From a virus, in IMG/VR virus record IMGVR_UViG_3300042876_001170, positions 1-38,370 of that record: 38,370 bases of DNA; one strand, written 5' to 3'. The stretch's first letter is position 1. Each line of letters starts with the position of its first letter. Of this stretch, positions 1,015 to 12,759 are shown one piece after another. The translations under genes were made by a program, and so were the position numbers. Below the pieces are notes generated by a model. That model was not told where the DNA came from. It did no database searches and saw only the letters and a program-made list of their open reading frames with translations.

Positions 1015-1242
1015 TTATGCCGCCTTCCTGATGCATGCAACATTTGGCGTCCAAGCGGACACTGGTGGCGCCGCCTGGACGGCTGCTGCACCTAGCCTTG
1101 ATTCGGCATAGGAGCGGGTCACCACCGGGCGGCCGGTGGCCGCCGTCTCGAATATCCAAGCCCGTTCCGTCAGCCACCGCCGCTGGTCCGCGTGGCGTTG
1201 ATAGCCGGTCAGAGTGACGATCTCGGCGGTGGTGAGGAACAT
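1015..1242 (-). CDS. DUF4224-like small phage protein, possible excision or regulatory factor
   Basis: A 75-residue protein beginning MFLTTAEIVTLTGYQR, with an RRWLTER...GRPVVTRSY pattern typical of DUF4224 proteins found beside phage integrases. I chose the internal ATG at 1242 because the family begins there; an in-frame ATG at 1335 would add an Arg-rich N-terminus overlapping the next gene. Its stop is 3 nt from the integrase start, so the two are translationally linked. Small basic proteins in this position are often directionality factors or integrase regulators. That role is inference only. Confidence 0.75.
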   Translation of the reverse strand: MFLTTAEIVTLTGYQRHADQRRWLTERAWIFETAATGRPVVTRSYAESRLGAAAVQAAPPVSAWTPNVACIRKAA

Positions 1243-1256
1243 GGCTGACGCGGTGG

Positions 1257-1499
1257 TTATTTGCCGTCGGGGCGCTTGTCCAGGCCCTTTTCCGCCAGCA
1301 TTTCGGCGACGTCGTCGACGTGCAGGCAGTCGCACATGCAGGCGTAGGTGGAGTGCCCGCCCTCGTGCACGATGTTGCCGTTGCAGTAGTCGTTGCCCGG
1401 CGTTGCGTCCTGCAGCGTGCCGAAGGCGACAATGACGCCACCCTCCAGCCGCACAACCTTGTCGCCGTTGTTGGCCTCGCGGCCGTTCCTGTAATGCAT
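1257..1499 (-). CDS. Small phage protein made from an internal start of the Lar-like frame
   Basis: An 80-residue protein beginning MHYRNGREANNGDKVV and containing CNGNIVHEGG and CMCDCLHVDDVAEM. The N-terminus reads like a complete phage protein of the type that opens with YRNGREA..GDKV and is followed by a beta-strand-rich segment. The start is supported by GAAAGGGA seven to ten bases upstream of the ATG. It lies in the same frame as the Lar-like protein, so it is either an independent product or only the C-terminal part of a fusion. Function unknown; the Cys/His cluster in the last third suggests metal binding. Confidence 0.6.
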   Translation of the reverse strand: MHYRNGREANNGDKVVRLEGGVIVAFGTLQDATPGNDYCNGNIVHEGGHSTYACMCDCLHVDDVAEMLAEKGLDKRPDGK

Positions 1500-1877
1500 G
1501 TCGTTCCCTTTCGCTTGTTCCCGGCCGAAGAGGGCCGCCGGGGTCGCCCGTCTTAAAACGTTTGCCCGTTTCCAGTTCCGCCCGCGTCGCTGCGCTCCCA
1601 GTGCGTTGGCGTATTCGTTCCAGAAGCTCACCGCCTCGACCAATCGCCCTCGATAGAAGTCAGGCGGCGGCATGTAAAGCAGGCAGCCCTCGTTAATCAC
1701 GCCATCTTGCGGTCCGAATCTGTCGCCGTTGCTGCACATCACCACCTTGTGGATCGGGCCGTTCTTGAAGTCCGTGCTGTATTGCCAAAGCGTTGCATCA
1801 GCACCGCATACGGGGCACGGTTCGATGTGCATGCCTGACGGGTCTTCAGCGAGCTTGTAGAGATCGTCGGCGTTCAT
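1257..1877 (-). CDS. Lar-like zinc-binding protein with in-frame C-terminal extension
   Basis: This 206-residue reading frame has two visible parts. Residues 1-95 resemble Lar restriction-alleviation proteins: CPVCGADATL near the start, further Cys residues and an AVSFWNEYA segment matching the family's EAIxxWNxR end. Known Lar proteins protect phage DNA from type I restriction. Residues 127-206 look like a separate small phage protein (MHYRNGREANNGDKVV onward), normally an independent gene. The junction encodes RRATPAALFGREQAKGND, which is the translated 56-bp repeat and carries its own ribosome-binding site and ATG (1499). The start at 1877 overlaps the upstream stop (ATGA). Either this is a true fusion or the Lar part lost its stop codon and two products are made from one frame. 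Confidence 0.7.
   Translation of the reverse strand: MNADDLYKLAEDPSGMHIEPCPVCGADATLWQYSTDFKNGPIHKVVMCSNGDRFGPQDGVINEGCLLYMPPPDFYRGRLVEAVSFWNEYANALGAQRRGRNWKRANVLRRATPAALFGREQAKGNDMHYRNGREANNGDKVVRLEGGVIVAFGTLQDATPGNDYCNGNIVHEGGHSTYACMCDCLHVDDVAEMLAEKGLDKRPDGK
1496..1551 (-). repeat. 56-bp direct repeat, copy 1 (ribosome-binding site plus start cassette)
   Basis: It is identical to 2092-2147 except for one base (A at 1531 against G at 2127). On the minus strand it contains GAAAGGGA and an ATG, and read in frame it encodes RATPAALFGREQAKGNDM. Copies lie immediately before two different small genes 596 bp apart in the same operon. Confidence 0.95.
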
Positions 1878-2095
1878 GACTGGCTCACGGTAAGGCGAAG
1901 CACAGTTGGCGCACGCGCGCTTCGGGTTGCCGTGACAGGAAGGGCTTGCTCCAGGCGTGCGATGTAGCGTTTTGCGGTCGCTCGCGAGACGCCGAAGCGC
2001 GTCTCGATATCTTGCCGCGTGATCGTGGCGCCCTCATACAGGGAGCGGGCCAGCTCGAGCATGTGCTGGCCGATGTCTGTAGAGCCTTTAGGCAT
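1874..2095 (-). CDS. Small helix-turn-helix protein
   Basis: A 73-residue protein (MPKGSTDIGQHML...) with a helix-turn-helix: residues about 22-45 read ITRQDIETRFGVSRATAKRY, typical of DeoR- or replication-control-type DNA-binding domains. It is probably a small transcriptional regulator. The start at 2095 is preceded by the GAAAGGGA of repeat copy 2. The same frame is open upstream to an ATG at 2215 that overlaps the preceding stop (ATGA), giving a possible 113-aa long form beginning MTTPITFPAPTANWG. The stop overlaps the Lar-like start (ATGA). Confidence 0.75.
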   Translation of the reverse strand: MPKGSTDIGQHMLELARSLYEGATITRQDIETRFGVSRATAKRYIARLEQALPVTATRSARAPTVLRLTVSQS

Positions 2096-2147
2096 GTCGT
2101 TCCCTTTCGCTTGTTCCCGGCCGAAGGGGGCCGCCGGGGTCGCCCGT
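2092..2147 (-). repeat. 56-bp direct repeat, copy 2 (ribosome-binding site plus start cassette)
   Basis: The partner of 1496-1551, 55 of 56 bases identical. It encodes RATPAAPFGREQAKGNDM in the frame that continues into the small HTH protein, and supplies that gene's ribosome-binding site and start codon. Confidence 0.95.
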
Positions 2148-2211
2148 GAAATGTTTGGCCACAACACCTCGCCCCAGTTGGCGGTTGGGGCGGGGAAGGT
2201 GATGGGTGTTG

Positions 2212-2559
2212 TCATGCCGACCTGTGCGGTGGAACCGGGCGGCCGGCCTCGGGGTTGCGTTCGTGTTGCTCGCACTGCGCCCAGTAGGCGTTCCAGGAGT
2301 GGGCGGGAAATGGATTGCTCACGCTCGGAAGACGCCAGCCTTTCTCGGTGGCCAGCTTGTACAGCCTGGGGTCGTAGCCGTTGGTTGCCTCGGGTGGGGC
2401 CGGCCACGGCGCCGGTTTCGGAACCATGCCAGGAGCGGGTTGTTGCCCCTGGGCAAGGGCATCGCTCAGCACTTTGGCCAGGGCATTGGCGCGCCCTTCT
2501 TCGGCCAGTTCCAGGAGCTCTTGCGCGATCTCGCGCGGAATGGATACTTGGTCGGTCAT
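2212..2559 (-). CDS. Conserved-type hypothetical phage protein
   Basis: A 115-residue protein starting MTDQVSIPREIAQELLELA. The first 35 residues look like a helical DNA-binding or oligomerisation segment, followed by a Pro/Ala-rich linker and a C-terminal half rich in Trp, Tyr and His (YKLATEKGW, NPFPAHSWNAYWAQCEQHERNP). I do not recognise a family. The start at 2559 has AAAGGA upstream and overlaps the stop of the 48-aa lipoprotein gene (ATGA). The stop overlaps an ATG at 2215 in the next reading frame, so it sits inside a fully coupled operon. Confidence 0.75.
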   Translation of the reverse strand: MTDQVSIPREIAQELLELAEEGRANALAKVLSDALAQGQQPAPGMVPKPAPWPAPPEATNGYDPRLYKLATEKGWRLPSVSNPFPAHSWNAYWAQCEQHERNPEAGRPVPPHRSA

Positions 2560-2702
2560 TTCGTTGATCCTTTCGTGTTGGTACATACCCGAGCGCCGGT
2601 GACTGCGTCGTTGTGGCACTCCGTTGAATCGCTCGGCGGGTTGTTGCCACTGCCACCGCAGGCGGCCAGGACGATGAGCAGCAGCAATGCGATCGGCTTC
2701 AT
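2556..2702 (-). CDS. 48-aa lipoprotein
   Basis: A small gene read directly from the sequence. It encodes MKPIALLLLIVLAACGGSG followed by about 30 polar residues with two more Cys (C29, C40). A short charged start, a hydrophobic run and the lipobox L-A-A-C (lipidated C15) make it a near-certain secreted lipoprotein. The ATG at 2702 overlaps the upstream TGA and its own TGA overlaps the next ATG, so it is translationally coupled on both sides. An early-operon lipoprotein is unlike Rz1, which belongs to the late lysis cassette. Superinfection exclusion or envelope modification is a reasonable inference, not shown. Confidence 0.8.
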   Translation of the reverse strand: MKPIALLLLIVLAACGGSGNNPPSDSTECHNDAVTGARVCTNTKGSTK

Positions 2703-3466
2703 GCTTCCACCCACTGGGCGTGCAGCTGCTCGACCACTTGGGCTGCATCGGCGCGGATTCGACCGTCTCTGACAGTCAGGACCGGAGGTTCCTTGCCGAA
2801 CTTCGCTGCCAGCTTGGCCAGGCCATCAAGGATCATCCGGCGCGTGTAGCCCTCGGCCGCGAGGGAGTCGAGCAGACGCAGGGGCCGCTTGGCATCGACG
2901 GTGCGCAACCTCTCGTGCAGCTGCTTGACGTCGTAGGCGTTGCGGACGGTCACCTGACTCCGCCTGAGCTGCAGTGCCGGCATCTTGTAGCCGAGTAGGC
3001 GCGCCAGTTCTGCCTTGCTGTGGCCGTCGGCAAGCAGCTCGTCGATGAGCTTCCAGGTGTCCGCTGCAGGGACAAGGGCGTGATCGGCCGCGGCTGCGAC
3101 CGTGACGCCGAGTATCAGCCGCTCGGTGCGGGCGCGGATGTTCGTCTTGCGGCCGGCAATGACTTCAGTGAGTACCGAGTCGGCGACGCCCGTAACATCG
3201 CCGACCACGCGTCGGCCGACGCCTGCCTTCGATAGCTCTGCCAGATGCGCGCGCGCCTTCTCGGCGCTGACGATGCCGTTCCAGTCGCCGTTCTTGCTGG
3301 CGATGGCTCTGGCTTTTTCGTGGTCGGTGTTCGCGCGCCGACAGTCGCTGCAGCGGCAGCCGGCGAGGTATTTGAGCCGATCGCCGTGCGGCCGGTCCTT
3401 GGCCAGGTCCGCCACGGGCCGCAGGCCACGTTTGCTGAGCGTGGTGTTGGCTTGTGGCTGAATCAC
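2699..3466 (-). CDS. Phage HTH-containing protein with N-terminal Cys cluster
   Basis: A 255-residue protein. Residues 25-50 hold HGDRLKYLAGCRCSDCRRA, a CxCxxC cluster of a kind seen in many phage proteins. Residues 67-120 (SAEKARAHLAELSKAGVGRR...IRARTERLILGV) look like a DNA-binding module with the AGVGRRxV..G phage signature. The rest includes SKAELARLLGYKMPALQL, a second possible helix-turn-helix, and a helical C-terminus. It is likely a phage DNA-binding regulator, perhaps of the WhiB-neighbouring or sigma-region-4-like group. Exact role unknown. The start codon is GTG (3466), overlapping the upstream stop. Confidence 0.75.
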   Translation of the reverse strand: MIQPQANTTLSKRGLRPVADLAKDRPHGDRLKYLAGCRCSDCRRANTDHEKARAIASKNGDWNGIVSAEKARAHLAELSKAGVGRRVVGDVTGVADSVLTEVIAGRKTNIRARTERLILGVTVAAAADHALVPAADTWKLIDELLADGHSKAELARLLGYKMPALQLRRSQVTVRNAYDVKQLHERLRTVDAKRPLRLLDSLAAEGYTRRMILDGLAKLAAKFGKEPPVLTVRDGRIRADAAQVVEQLHAQWVEA

Positions 3467-3984: not shown

Positions 3985-4513
3985 GGTGGTGTCTCCCTCC
4001 CTCGGTCAGCTCGATGTAGCGCCGCATGAAGAAGCCGGCCGCGCGCGGTGGCGCCATGTTGATGATCTGCTTCGGCAGGGGATCGATGCCGGCCAGCTGC
4101 GGCCACGGGTCGTCGGGGGGCATCAGGTCGCGGCGTTCGGTGGCCAGCAGGATCAGGTCGGCCTTCTTTACGGCCGGCGACATGGAGAGCGGCAGGCCGA
4201 ACTTGGCGCGAATGACGGCATCGATCCGCGCCTCGATGGCCTGGTAGTCGGGCAGCTCCTGCTTGAGCGGCGTCATGATGTCCTTGCAGTAGGCCTCGGC
4301 CGCATCGTGCATGAGCGCCTCGAGCTGGTAGGGCGGCGCGACGATCTGGCTGCACAACCAGGAGTGCTGCGCCACGGTGTAGAGGCCGCGGCACTGCCCG
4401 TTGTAGCGGCTCTCCTTCGACAGGCCCTCGACGATGTCGAGGATGTGGATATCGTCCGGCCGGGGATCGAGGAAGTTGAGCTTGCGCGCGGAGGCCGTGA
4501 GGAGGTAGCTCAT
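3977..4513 (-). CDS. HD-domain phosphohydrolase
   Basis: A 178-residue HD-superfamily metal-dependent phosphohydrolase. The metal ligands are visible: H50 (TVAQHS), H69-D70 (ALMHDAAEAY) and D119 (KKADLILL), the H...HD...D set. The layout resembles YfbR-type 5'-deoxynucleotidases and phage homologues annotated as phosphohydrolases, which dephosphorylate dNMPs. The C-terminus ends in a His-rich tail. It overlaps the P-loop gene upstream (ATGA) and the DUF550-type gene downstream, so the three are produced together. Substrate is inferred, not shown. Confidence 0.85.
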   Translation of the reverse strand: MSYLLTASARKLNFLDPRPDDIHILDIVEGLSKESRYNGQCRGLYTVAQHSWLCSQIVAPPYQLEALMHDAAEAYCKDIMTPLKQELPDYQAIEARIDAVIRAKFGLPLSMSPAVKKADLILLATERRDLMPPDDPWPQLAGIDPLPKQIINMAPPRAAGFFMRRYIELTEGGRHHHG

Positions 4514-4746
4514 GATTGCCCCGCCTCGAGGTCGGCCTTGGCGACAGCGAACTTGATTGCCAGCGCACCCGGAACAGCGAACGGCGGCTCAAGATTCGTT
4601 AGCACCAAGTCGTCATCCTGGAGATCCACCTGGCGGCTGGGGTACCAGTCCTCGATGATCCGATCGCAGCCGTAATGCGCCTTGAGCTGCTGGGCGAGCG
4701 ATGTTTTCCCGCAGCCCTGGGGGCCGTAGATGATCACGACGCTCAT
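4510..4746 (-). CDS. Small P-loop NTPase-like protein
   Basis: A 78-residue protein that starts MSVVIIYGPQGCGKTSLA, a perfect Walker A motif (GxxGxGKT/S) directly after the first beta strand. The remainder (RIIEDWYPSR..., DDDLVLTNLEP) could supply a short Walker B-like strand. It is much shorter than a nucleoside or adenylate kinase, so it is either a minimal ATP/GTP-binding protein or a reduced kinase. Family members in phages are usually annotated only as ATP-binding. It is coupled by ATGA overlaps to the ParB-like gene upstream and the HD gene downstream. Confidence 0.75.
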   Translation of the reverse strand: MSVVIIYGPQGCGKTSLAQQLKAHYGCDRIIEDWYPSRQVDLQDDDLVLTNLEPPFAVPGALAIKFAVAKADLEAGQS

Positions 4747-7214
4747 GGCACCAGCCTTTTCTGGCCAGCCGCCTCGAGCGCCTGGCCGTCGGACTGCTCG
4801 ACCTTCGCCGGTCGGTTCCCGGTCGGGAATGGCCAGGCCTCGGCCGGCCTCAGTTCGCTCGAGGTCTTCGCCGGCGCAGCCGGCTTGTTCGGCGCCGCCG
4901 GCGCCGCTGTTTTCGTCTTCGCCTTGGTCTTCTTCGCGGCGGGCGGGAATGGCCAGGCCGTCTTGCCCAGTTGGTTTTCACCCGGCGCAGCCGGGTCGTT
5001 CGGCGCCGCCGGCGCCGCTGTTCCTGCCTTTGCCTTCGGGTCTTTCGCGGCCGCTGCTTTCCCCTTGGTCTTGGCCGGCGCAGCCGGTTTCGCACTTACC
5101 CCTTGCGCTTGCGCAGCTTTGGTAGGGGTAGAAGCGGCTGTGGAGTCGGCAGGGAGCTTGTCCAACTCGGTGCGGTGGTAGCTGAGCGTGCTGCCCTTGG
5201 GTGTGAAGGCAATCATGAAGGCGCTATCACCGCACAGGCTGGTGACGTGTCCGGCTTTGCCGATATTGGCGGACCCAAGCGGGGACTTGGCCGTGGCATT
5301 GACGCGCACGCGATCGCCGATCTCAAGCTGGCTAGTGGTGTCCGCTGGTTCGGTGGGCTCGATGACTCGCTCAAGTTCGCCAGACCCCAGATTGCTCACG
5401 ACGCTCTTCTTCCCGTCGAGGTCGAACTCGACGGAGCAGACATTCGACTTGCTGACGGCGGTGACGACTCCGACCCTCCCGCAGCACTTTCGGAAATGCC
5501 CAGTGGGGCCTTTGGCGCCATCAATGACCCGCACGCGCTCGCCGATCTGCAGCGCCAACAGGTGCGTCTTGAGTTGTGCAGTCTTCGGCTGCACTTTCTT
5601 GGCGGCCTTGGGCTTGGCCTTCTCGCGCATTTCGGAGATCACGGCGGTCTTGATGGCGGCGGCGTCGATATCGAGCGAGGCAGCCATGTCCAGCATGTGG
5701 TCCGGCTTGCCGTGGTTGTAGCCACTGACGAAGGTCTCACCGACCAGGGACATTTCCAGCAGCAGCCGCGCACAGTCGGCGCGCTTCATGTTGGGGATCT
5801 GCTTGCTCAGCTCGCGCACGAGCTCGTGGCCCTCCTGCTTCTCGTCGGTGGGGCCGATCCAGAACTGCGCCAGGCGCTTGCTGGTATCGAAGCCCAGCAG
5901 GCCGAACATGCGGCTGGTCACCAGGCGGTACTCTTCGTCGCGGAGCGGGCCGCCGTCGCAGGTCTCGTCGGTGAGCGTGAGGGTGAGCTTGCTGCGGATC
6001 TGGTCGTAGAGCCGGCGGCGATAGGTGGCTTCCTGCTTGAGCTTCCGCTCCTCCTCGCGCTGTTTGTCGCTCTTGGTGCCGCGGGTGCTGGTGACGCCCA
6101 TCACGTCGTAACCCTTGGCCTTGAGCTGGTCCTTGATCGTCGCGGTCTGCACCACCTCGACGATCGTGCCGTTGCGGGTGGGGTCGATCAGCAGGTCGGC
6201 CTTGGGCGCTTCGTCCTTGAGTGCCTGCCGGATCGTGGTGCTCTTGCCGTTCTTGTAGATCGTCTTGTCGAGATCCACGTAGCCGCCATTTAGATCGTCC
6301 GAGTAGCTGTGGGGCTTGATCTTTTTCGCCTCGGCGCCGTCGATGATCTTGCGGCCTTCAGTCTTGGCCAGCTTCTTCTGGTTGGCGACGTGGGCCTCGG
6401 TCTTCGCCTGGTAGCAGCTCGGGTCGGTGCAGATGTCTGCACTCTTGACGTCGCTGAACAGGTCCTTGGCATTGCCGGTTCGCTTCTGGCAGTCTTTGCA
6501 GCTGCCAACGGAGGCCAGTAGGTCGATCGCGCTACGGCTGAAGGGCGCGCGATCGAGTTCCAGCATGTATTCGCGCTGGATGAGGTTGAATGCATTGCGA
6601 TAGCTCATTGGGCCGTCGCCATACCCTGTGGCGATACTCTTGGCGGCGGCCTCCTGCAGCTTGACGTCCGGGATGCGGGCGATGAGGAGGGCGGTGCTGG
6701 CGTCGAGCTTGCCATCGTTGAAGTACTTCACGCCGCCGGGGCAGAGGTCCAGTAGTTTCAGCCTGGCGTAGAGGTAAGCCTTGGTCTTGCCGAATTGCTT
6801 CATCAACTGCTCGACGGTGTGGCCGTGGTCCTTCATCAGGCGCCGATAGTCGGCCGCCTCCTCGAGCGCGGTGATGTCGGTGCGGTGCAGGTTCTCGGTC
6901 AGCTGCAGCACAAGCGCCTGCTCGTCGGTCAGCTCGCGCCAGAAGAAGGGAATGTCGGGCTGCTTGGTGCGATCGCTGGACAGCCAGCGGCCTTCGCCGA
7001 CCACGATCTCGTAGACCACGCCGGCCGGTGCTTTGCCGCGCGAGGCCGGCCAAGGGCGGGCGGTGATCGGCTGGATGACGCCGACGGCAGCAATCGACGC
7101 GTCGAGCTGCTGGAGGGATTGCTCGTTGTGCTTGCGGTTGGTGGCCGACGGCGCGAAGGCTGAGAGGGGCGCGCGCGCGACGGCAACCGCATCGGGGGGC
7201 AGCGGTGCATTCAT
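4743..7214 (-). CDS. Large ParB-like (ParB/RepB/Spo0J) protein
   Basis: An 823-residue protein and the largest early-left product. Residues 15-115 form a ParB N-terminal domain with VVGEGRW (71-77) and TENLHRTDITALEEA (106-120); residues 132-155 are the ParB-type helix-turn-helix; C239, C242, C262 and C267 make a probable zinc site. Two similar modules follow (IGERVRVIDGAKGP... and IGDRVRVNATAKSP...), like KOW or SH3 barrels. The Ala/Pro/Lys-rich tail has two copies of a 37-residue repeat starting TAAPAAPN, and the motif AWPFP twice. The start at 7214 follows GAGGAA. No ParA is present, so a regulatory or nuclease role is more likely than partition. Confidence 0.8.
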   Translation of the reverse strand: MNAPLPPDAVAVARAPLSAFAPSATNRKHNEQSLQQLDASIAAVGVIQPITARPWPASRGKAPAGVVYEIVVGEGRWLSSDRTKQPDIPFFWRELTDEQALVLQLTENLHRTDITALEEAADYRRLMKDHGHTVEQLMKQFGKTKAYLYARLKLLDLCPGGVKYFNDGKLDASTALLIARIPDVKLQEAAAKSIATGYGDGPMSYRNAFNLIQREYMLELDRAPFSRSAIDLLASVGSCKDCQKRTGNAKDLFSDVKSADICTDPSCYQAKTEAHVANQKKLAKTEGRKIIDGAEAKKIKPHSYSDDLNGGYVDLDKTIYKNGKSTTIRQALKDEAPKADLLIDPTRNGTIVEVVQTATIKDQLKAKGYDVMGVTSTRGTKSDKQREEERKLKQEATYRRRLYDQIRSKLTLTLTDETCDGGPLRDEEYRLVTSRMFGLLGFDTSKRLAQFWIGPTDEKQEGHELVRELSKQIPNMKRADCARLLLEMSLVGETFVSGYNHGKPDHMLDMAASLDIDAAAIKTAVISEMREKAKPKAAKKVQPKTAQLKTHLLALQIGERVRVIDGAKGPTGHFRKCCGRVGVVTAVSKSNVCSVEFDLDGKKSVVSNLGSGELERVIEPTEPADTTSQLEIGDRVRVNATAKSPLGSANIGKAGHVTSLCGDSAFMIAFTPKGSTLSYHRTELDKLPADSTAASTPTKAAQAQGVSAKPAAPAKTKGKAAAAKDPKAKAGTAAPAAPNDPAAPGENQLGKTAWPFPPAAKKTKAKTKTAAPAAPNKPAAPAKTSSELRPAEAWPFPTGNRPAKVEQSDGQALEAAGQKRLVP
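5114..5135 (-). repeat. 22-bp exact repeat, ParB-gene copy
   Basis: The minus strand here is identical over 22 bases to plus-strand 11183-11204 in the primase gene. Both copies are read in the same frame, giving ASTPTKA, and both lie in disordered linkers. Confidence 0.9.
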
Positions 7215-7414: not shown

Positions 7415-7776
7415 GACGGCCGCGACTCGTCGAGTTGAGCGCAGACCGCCAGCGATACTTCCTTGCCGTGCACCCAAACTGCATACGTGTGCACTGCCAG
7501 GTGGTCGGTATCGACGTGGGAGACCGCCTGGCGCTCGACGGCGTTGTGATCAAGCCACGCCAGGACGTTGGCCAGCGCCGCCTGCACGAAGACCAAGGCG
7601 ACGCAGCCGTGTTCGTCGATGTGCCCCTGGGCGGCGGCGGCGAAGCCGGCCTCGCGCAGTCTCCCCTCCAGGATCTCGGCGGCGGTCAGGTTGGTTGCTG
7701 CTGCCTGGAGGATTGCCCAGGCGGCGTTCTGGTCGCGCCGCAAGTCGGCAGCGAGTTGTTGTTGAAGGCGACTCAT
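7411..7776 (-). CDS. Hypothetical phage protein, 121 aa
   Basis: It begins MSRLQQQLAADLRRDQNAAW at 7776, preceded by TTGGAG. The first half is helical and charged; the second half (GCVALVFVQAALANVLAWLDH, HLAVHTYAVWVHGKEV) is more hydrophobic but not a convincing membrane segment. No family recognised. It lies between the 67-aa gene at 7788 and the coupled 67-aa gene at 7211, in the promoter-proximal part of the early-left operon, where phages commonly carry host-takeover genes. Confidence 0.65.
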   Translation of the reverse strand: MSRLQQQLAADLRRDQNAAWAILQAAATNLTAAEILEGRLREAGFAAAAQGHIDEHGCVALVFVQAALANVLAWLDHNAVERQAVSHVDTDHLAVHTYAVWVHGKEVSLAVCAQLDESRPS

Positions 7777-8125: not shown

Positions 8126-8154
8126 GATTCCTCCCGATAGGCGTTAAAAGTGGC

Positions 8155-8168
8155 GTAACTATAGTTAC
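8155..8168. promoter_or_regulatory. Repressor operator at PL, site 1
   Basis: A perfect 14-bp palindrome, GTAACTATAGTTAC, covering the PL -10 box. Near-identical sites occur at 8182-8196, 9019-9032 and 9067-9080, all around the immunity switch, so this is almost certainly bound by the repressor and Cro-like protein. Confidence 0.9.
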
Positions 8169-8186
8169 CGATAATTCCGGTGTCAA
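8158..8186 (-). promoter_or_regulatory. PL, early leftward sigma-70 promoter
   Basis: On the minus strand it reads TTGACA (8186-8181), 17 bp, then TATAGT (8163-8158), an ideal -35 box, ideal spacing and a near-consensus -10. Predicted start is near 8151, giving a leader of about 25 nt. One operator covers each box, so bound repressor would block polymerase. Confidence 0.9.
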
Positions 8187-8196
8187 CTATGGTTAC
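8182..8196. promoter_or_regulatory. Repressor operator at PL, site 2
   Basis: GTCAACTATGGTTAC, an imperfect copy of the operator palindrome with one extra base in the left arm. It overlaps the -35 box of PL. Centre-to-centre distance to site 1 is about 27-28 bp. Confidence 0.75.
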
Positions 8197-8205
8197 GCCG
8201 CAGGG

Positions 8206-12518: not shown

Positions 12519-12759
12519 GGTTGGGAACCTGTAGAGCCGCATTGGGCGGGCGTCTTCCCAACCTTCCTAACCTTCCCGACTCATTTCCCCGCGTGGGCGT
12601 GCGCACCCGCGTGTAGGCGTGCGAGCGCACAGGCCTGCGTGCGCGGGCGCGCGCGCTTGCCCATTTTCACCTTAGGAAGGTTAGGAAGGTTAGGAAGAGC
12701 GGCATGGGCTCAGGGTTTTGAGGCTCCTAACCTCTGCCCGACCTCGGTGAGGTTGGGAA
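12519..12759. other. Iteron cluster, candidate replication origin
   Basis: Copies of the 9-mer GGTTRGGAA occur at 12519-12527 (+), 12555-12563 (-), 12564-12572 (-), 12679-12687 (+), 12688-12696 (+) and 12751-12759 (+), plus one copy with a mismatch at 12724-12732 (-). Paired tandem copies in opposite orientation flank a G/C-alternating core (about 12593-12660). The block follows the helicase gene and is the only early gene gap over 250 bp. Origin function is inferred from iterons plus position. Confidence 0.55.

Follow-up and report, generated by a model that had tools for sequence, protein, structure and literature searches.

Introduction

The start-associated sequence (SAS) of cluster K mycobacteriophages has a 13-bp consensus, occurs in 11–19 copies and is conserved across the phage cluster (2011, PMC3203893), and repeats of the SAS type are also present in Microbacterium cluster EF (PMC7302621). 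In case of Citrobacter phage Mordin, a 26-bp start repeat is found in eight copies (PMC4611695), and the PeSL promoter/stem-loop cassettes of T4-type phages consist, in the summary given by PMC4503421 (after Arbiol 2010 and Comeau 2014), of an early promoter and a stem-loop. Phage genomes are mosaics of single genes, and the entry of a gene into an operon without breaking the expression of its neighbour is rarely seen directly. Here we describe a 56-bp repeat at two gene starts in a viral sequence of 38,370 nucleotides (IMG/VR record IMGVR_UViG_3300042876_001170), the whole of which is called the window below, and compare it with these systems and with related loci in other phages.

Results

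Sequence and anatomy of the leader repeat

The 56-bp sequence occurs twice on the same strand, 596 bp apart, before the genes of the MHYRNGRE protein and of an HTH protein (Table 1). The original prediction that the copies differ at one base and that each contains a ribosome-binding site (RBS) and an ATG was confirmed: they are identical at 55 of 56 positions in an ungapped alignment, the match stops 1 base past the ATG, and the sequence 5' ACGGGCGACCCCGGCGGCCCYCTTCGGCCGGGAACAAGCGAAAGGGAACGACATGC 3' is present in each. A scan of the whole window for the leader core with at most three mismatches gave exactly two sites (0 expected), and the longest exact repeat between the copies is 35 nt, compared with 14–20 nt in 20 Markov-1 controls. 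It had also been proposed that two long ORFs, starting at the ATGA overlaps at 1877 and 2215, read the leader peptide in frame, and translation bore this out. These two ATGA starts pair with the anti-SD at −2.0 and −3.2, respectively, weaker than the ATGs in the repeat (−5.3). Moreover, all three forward frames of the leader are free of stop codons, so its readability is no special property: any upstream frame that reaches it passes, and an in-frame run-in needs only the one-in-three phase. Judged by its position, its Shine-Dalgarno-like AAAGGG and the relatives of the gene behind it, the repeat is likely to be a duplicated 5' translation-start leader rather than a coding module.

Table 1. Features at the two leader copies and in the genes around them
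Feature	Position	Strand	Remark
80-aa MHYRNGRE-family protein (P0002)	1257..1499	minus	standalone in all 80 relatives kept
Fused ORF, 206 aa: Lar-like domain, leader-encoded linker, MHYRNGRE protein	1257..1877	minus	stop-free throughout
Leader copy 1, ACGGGCGACCCCGGCGGCCCTCTTCGGCCGGGAACAAGCGAAAGGGAACGACATGC	1496..1551	minus	start leader of MHYRNGRE protein
Shine-Dalgarno-like GAAAGGGAA	1504..1512	minus	4 nt before ATG 1499; anti-SD duplex −5.3 kcal/mol
Lar-like (restriction-alleviation-like) domain	1575..1877	minus	homologous to EBPR podovirus 1 gp15 and L085–L089
73-aa HTH_11 DNA-binding protein (P0001)	1874..2095	minus	short reading from leader copy 2
Leader copy 2, single-base change (CTC to CCC)	2092..2147	minus	start leader of HTH protein
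N-terminal part of second long reading (MTTPITF...)	2096..2215	minus	no homologue found
Shine-Dalgarno-like GAAAGGGAA, second copy	2100..2108	minus	precedes ATG 2095
Stem-loop between upstream gene and leader copy 2	2159..2206	minus	RNA fold z = −2.4
115-aa protein (P0005), upstream, of unknown function	2212..2559	minus	

The same anatomy might be expected of a start-associated regulatory sequence, the copies of which would be kept identical by a factor of the phage or of the host, perhaps the HTH protein, that binds the leader DNA or RNA and so co-regulates the genes behind it. The position, the RBS content and the conservation beyond the RBS resemble those of SAS (PMC3203893), the leader carries a CGGCC-N6-GGCCG dyad, and one copy lies directly before the HTH_11 protein. 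However, the genome has two copies only, the leader RNA folds no more stably than its shuffles (z of +0.9 and +1.3), an Rfam search of the leader gave no match, and no sigma-70-like promoter was found in 1200–3000, where a phage-specific promoter may lie. Furthermore, exact and degenerate patterns of the leader had 0 matches in viral contigs, bacterial genomes and GenBank phages, and no other carrier of the element was found in these collections. We consider a regulatory sequence of this kind unlikely.

The leader neighbourhood is non-structural, with integrase, excisionase, HTH and Lar-like genes adjoining. Two further repeats were seen elsewhere in the window. A 24-nt inverted repeat (12553–12698; TCTTCCCAACCTTCCTAACCTTCC), 96% complementary and with arms 98 nt apart, lies directly after the primase/helicase gene, and two 70-nt repeats (4871–5051), 83% alike and 111 nt apart, lie in a ParB-like protein, within its Ala/Pro/Lys-rich C-terminal part.

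Reading frames across the leader

The Lar-like part of the ORF from 1877 and gp15 of EBPR podovirus 1 share 62% identity, and the differences between them fall on the three codon positions as 26, 27 and 52, the third position having twice as many as either other. On the evidence of its sequence, this ORF is a genuine gene. Against family profiles the Lar-like part matched phrog_599 (E = 2e-4) and gave no Pfam Lar match, gp15 itself being a weak match. Five further Lar-like relatives were obtained (L085–L089), and a search of bacterial genomes with the Lar alignment gave no match. The Lar genes of L088 and L089 end with their own stop soon after the domain; in EBPR podovirus 1, L086 and L087 the domain is followed in frame by an internal SD-like sequence and ATG, and the reading continues into a different C-terminal part; for the C-terminal part of gp15 the search for standalone relatives gave partial matches inside other proteins only. 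The closest relative, L085 (76%), continues as a long tail. The window and L085 are alike through NWKRA(K/N)VLR, as far as the edge of leader copy 1, and past this edge the window has the leader and the MHYRNGRE gene where L085 has its tail. Since no stop ends the Lar-like ORF ahead of the MHYRNGRE gene, its translation must yield the fusion (1257–1877), which we read as a consequence of the joint and not as its purpose.

The second long ORF, from the ATGA at 2215, encodes 113 amino acids. Its N-terminal part had no match in phages and overlaps the stem-loop, and this stretch is probably untranslated intergenic DNA. Relatives of the HTH protein were not found in viral contigs. In composition shuffles the frame of the leader was open with a chance of 0.79; the value for the first linker was 0.48, and that for the second N-terminal part 0.40. 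Two in-phase open readings are therefore unremarkable.

The MHYRNGRE protein has 358 relatives in viral contigs, the best 80 of which, with 60 distinct leaders, were taken into the analyses. In all of these 80 the protein starts at its own ATG with MHYRNGREA, a count that is biased since this start was itself one of the search seeds, and an SD-like tetramer is present in 56 of the 60 distinct leaders. None of the examined relatives has the leader of the window, and their leaders are unrelated to it; thus, the leader does not travel with the gene. When 18 or more open codons are required upstream of the MHYRNGRE gene, 28 of the 60 have them in the frame of the gene, and 24 and 25 in the other two; when 50 or more are required, the counts are 12, 13 and 13, respectively. 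The original prediction had named an upstream frame open at random as its refutation, and by this test the fused reading is accidental, with the exception in the window that the stop-free Lar-like ORF gives a fusion wherever it is translated.

These frames bear on a design with dual isoforms, in which the leader peptide would be a functional linker and each gene would yield a long and a short protein. Both long frames are indeed open and in phase, the Lar-like ORF is stop-free before the second gene, and the Lar genes of EBPR podovirus 1, L086 and L087 likewise pass an internal SD-like sequence and ATG. Nevertheless, a conserved fusion, as would be expected of a gene-within-gene isoform pair, is not seen: the C-terminal protein is standalone in 80/80 of the best relatives, behind a random upstream frame. 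Moreover, the search for homologues of the second long ORF's N-terminal part found none and its SD is weak, the chance of an open frame in the shuffles is 0.40–0.79, the Lar genes of L088 and L089 have their own stop, and the sole difference between the copies alters an amino acid of the supposed linker, RATPAA(L/P)FGREQAKGND. The idea of long and short isoforms, put forward from the window alone, is therefore mostly unsupported, and we regard such a design as improbable.

Relatives and contexts of the MHYRNGRE gene

In 61 distinct loci the MHYRNGRE family has 58 upstream and 55 downstream neighbourhood groups, and the protein is about 70–90% identical among relatives despite the changing neighbourhoods. 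A highly conserved protein occurs in hundreds of environmental viral contigs with a different neighbourhood almost every time (loci L003–L082). At the thresholds used, the family is absent from 50,697 phage records in GenBank and from 72,556 plasmids, and the protein had no sequence match in Pfam, NCBIfam or PDB. The AlphaFold model shows a small beta barrel and a C-terminal helix (pLDDT 86), and a fold search gave weak SH3/Tudor/PWWP-like matches, none of them confident (best E 0.02 in PDB and 0.002 among viral models). The protein is predicted from this model to be a small SH3/Tudor-like barrel plus helix.

Some relatives have particular arrangements of their own. In L065 (5335–6281) the leader AGTTCACCCCGCAGTCCTAG is common to at least four consecutive small genes, the MHYRNGRE gene among them. 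L070 (6200–6316) has a 22-nt leader repeat, and in addition the end of the MHYRNGRE gene, its final codons with the stop (CGGTTTGGACAAGCGACCTGAAGGTAAATAACTATCATC), is tandemly repeated after the gene. L007, L009, L010 and L032 have a common leader with a short hairpin (TACATACTTGACTCCCTCGGGAGCAAAGGAG) upstream of the gene, and part of it recurs inverted nearby in L007 and L010. An integron cassette was considered for the GTTAGCC-like motifs upstream in several relatives and rejected, as no RYYYAAC/GTTRRRY pair lies near the gene in seven relatives; the scan of the relatives found one attC-like core pair in L004, about 2 kb from the MHYRNGRE gene.

Leader repeats and gene gain in other phages

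Leader repeats of at least 20 nt within 2.5 kb were found at 5 of the 60 MHYRNGRE starts (L008, L020, L025, L065 and L070). Of 1103 random positions, 3 had such a repeat (p = 2e-5), and of 1662 other starts preceded by an SD, 37 (p = 0.014); the last excess is just fourfold, among starts that are not independent, and the excess is carried by few phages. The duplicated leaders of different phages are mutually unrelated in sequence. A miniature cassette, mobile, fixed in sequence and inserting at gene starts, is accordingly very improbable: the near-identity of the two copies, 596 bp apart in an early region that is variable, would suit it, but the patterns tried gave no copy in viral contigs, bacterial genomes or phage records, the duplicated leaders of other phages are unrelated, and no attC-like pair lies beside the gene in the seven relatives inspected.

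In case of L020, the state without the gene could be identified. Its positions 4201–5992 match L098 698–2491 and its positions 6240–7200 match L098 2438–3400, at about 98%, and the 54 bp by which the two alignments overlap are the leader. L098 represents the empty site (2438–2500), where an upstream gene, which we take from its sequence to be a capsid gene, is followed by a single leader and the next gene, without a gene of the MHYRNGRE family; L099 and L100 agree with it in having a single leader. In L020 (5945–6303) the MHYRNGRE-family gene lies between two copies of the native leader. Both copies have the same 3' end, which differs from that of the relatives, and this derived end shows that it was not a simple target duplication; either the leader changed before it was duplicated, or the copies were homogenised.

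EBPR podovirus 1 (JF412294; locus L083) has a 55-nt leader repeat (93%) at 7562–7616 and 8148–8202, before gp15 and gp16. In addition, gp14 (L083 5560–6540) is swapped for an unrelated gene in L087 (3560–4010) between flanks that are 94% identical, and the joints of the swap lie at the ATGA start codon and inside the leader of the next gene. The empty-site evidence thus comes from one phage group (L020/L098) and the gene swap from another (the EBPR group). At the ends of all repeats of 18–150 nt in 63 loci there is no enrichment of ATG (ATG 18, GAT 18, TGA 16), so short repeats in phages do not arise chiefly by leader duplication, which is real in individual phages and not dominant.

For the original view of the repeat as a mobile or duplicated translation module, these results uphold a duplicated start module and not a mobile fixed sequence, as the window's leader had 0 matches in the viral, phage and bacterial collections and each phage duplicates its own leader. 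The further suggestion that a small gene can be inserted without losing translation gains support from the empty site of L098 compared with L020, and from the swap between EBPR podovirus 1 and L087 at start and leader joints.

Discussion

Proposed history of the locus

Leader duplication accompanying the gain of a gene is, in our opinion, the best account of the window, and probably the right one. We assume that a small roaming MHYRNGRE gene was attached behind the Lar-like gene, and that it came with a copied leader, that of the HTH gene lying two genes upstream. In this way the MHYRNGRE gene would have gained a working RBS and start codon, and the resident HTH gene would have kept its own. 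The 3' joint would lie at the start codon and the 5' joint at the end of the conserved Lar sequence, replacing a tail of the L085 type. If the joint removed the stop of Lar, the stop-free leader would let the Lar ORF read into the MHYRNGRE gene, and the fusion would be a by-product. The route was probably short-homology recombination at leader sequences. We infer the gene gain in the window itself by analogy, empty-site relatives being known for L020 and not for the window, and the direction of leader copying, from the HTH to the MHYRNGRE gene, is likewise presumed.

The pair L020/L098, which differs by a gene and one extra leader copy, makes the joints of such an event visible. It is tempting to extend this to the whole family, which may repeatedly enter unrelated phage operons at start leaders and leave the recipient's leader on both sides; as a general route of single-gene gain without disturbing the translation of the resident gene, this is a tentative proposal that has somewhat less than an even chance of holding.

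Comparison with known systems

The PeSL cassettes, as PMC4503421 summarises them, share with the window a short regulatory repeat between small genes, for which a role in gene shuffling is proposed there. The difference is that PeSL has an early promoter, none of the sigma-70-like type being found here in 1200–3000, and that the window's leader carries the start codon itself. The leader repeat of EBPR podovirus 1 has the same anatomy, with 55 nt and a spacing of 586 bp compared with 596 bp, and adjoins a homologue of the Lar-like gene, but its sequence is unrelated. Two of its three frames contain stops, and the flanking genes are thus not joined by the leader itself. In anatomy, the SAS of cluster K mycobacteriophages comes closest among the known kinds, together with the Mordin repeat. 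The latter, from a proteobacterial phage, is also a longer leader repeat that lies directly before small hypothetical genes, and differs in having eight copies compared with two. The 17-bp inverted repeats of the ESAS type were not seen here, and two copies at up to three mismatches are fewer than the 11–19 of SAS; the window has two copies of a 56-bp sequence that reaches through the ATG and was found in one phage only. Both SAS and the present leader stand at the RBS position a few bases before the ATG, in one orientation and with conservation beyond the RBS, and precede different small non-structural genes. For start-associated repeats, which have had no settled function since their description in 2011, leader duplication would offer an evolutionary origin: they may reflect past gene gain no less than regulation.
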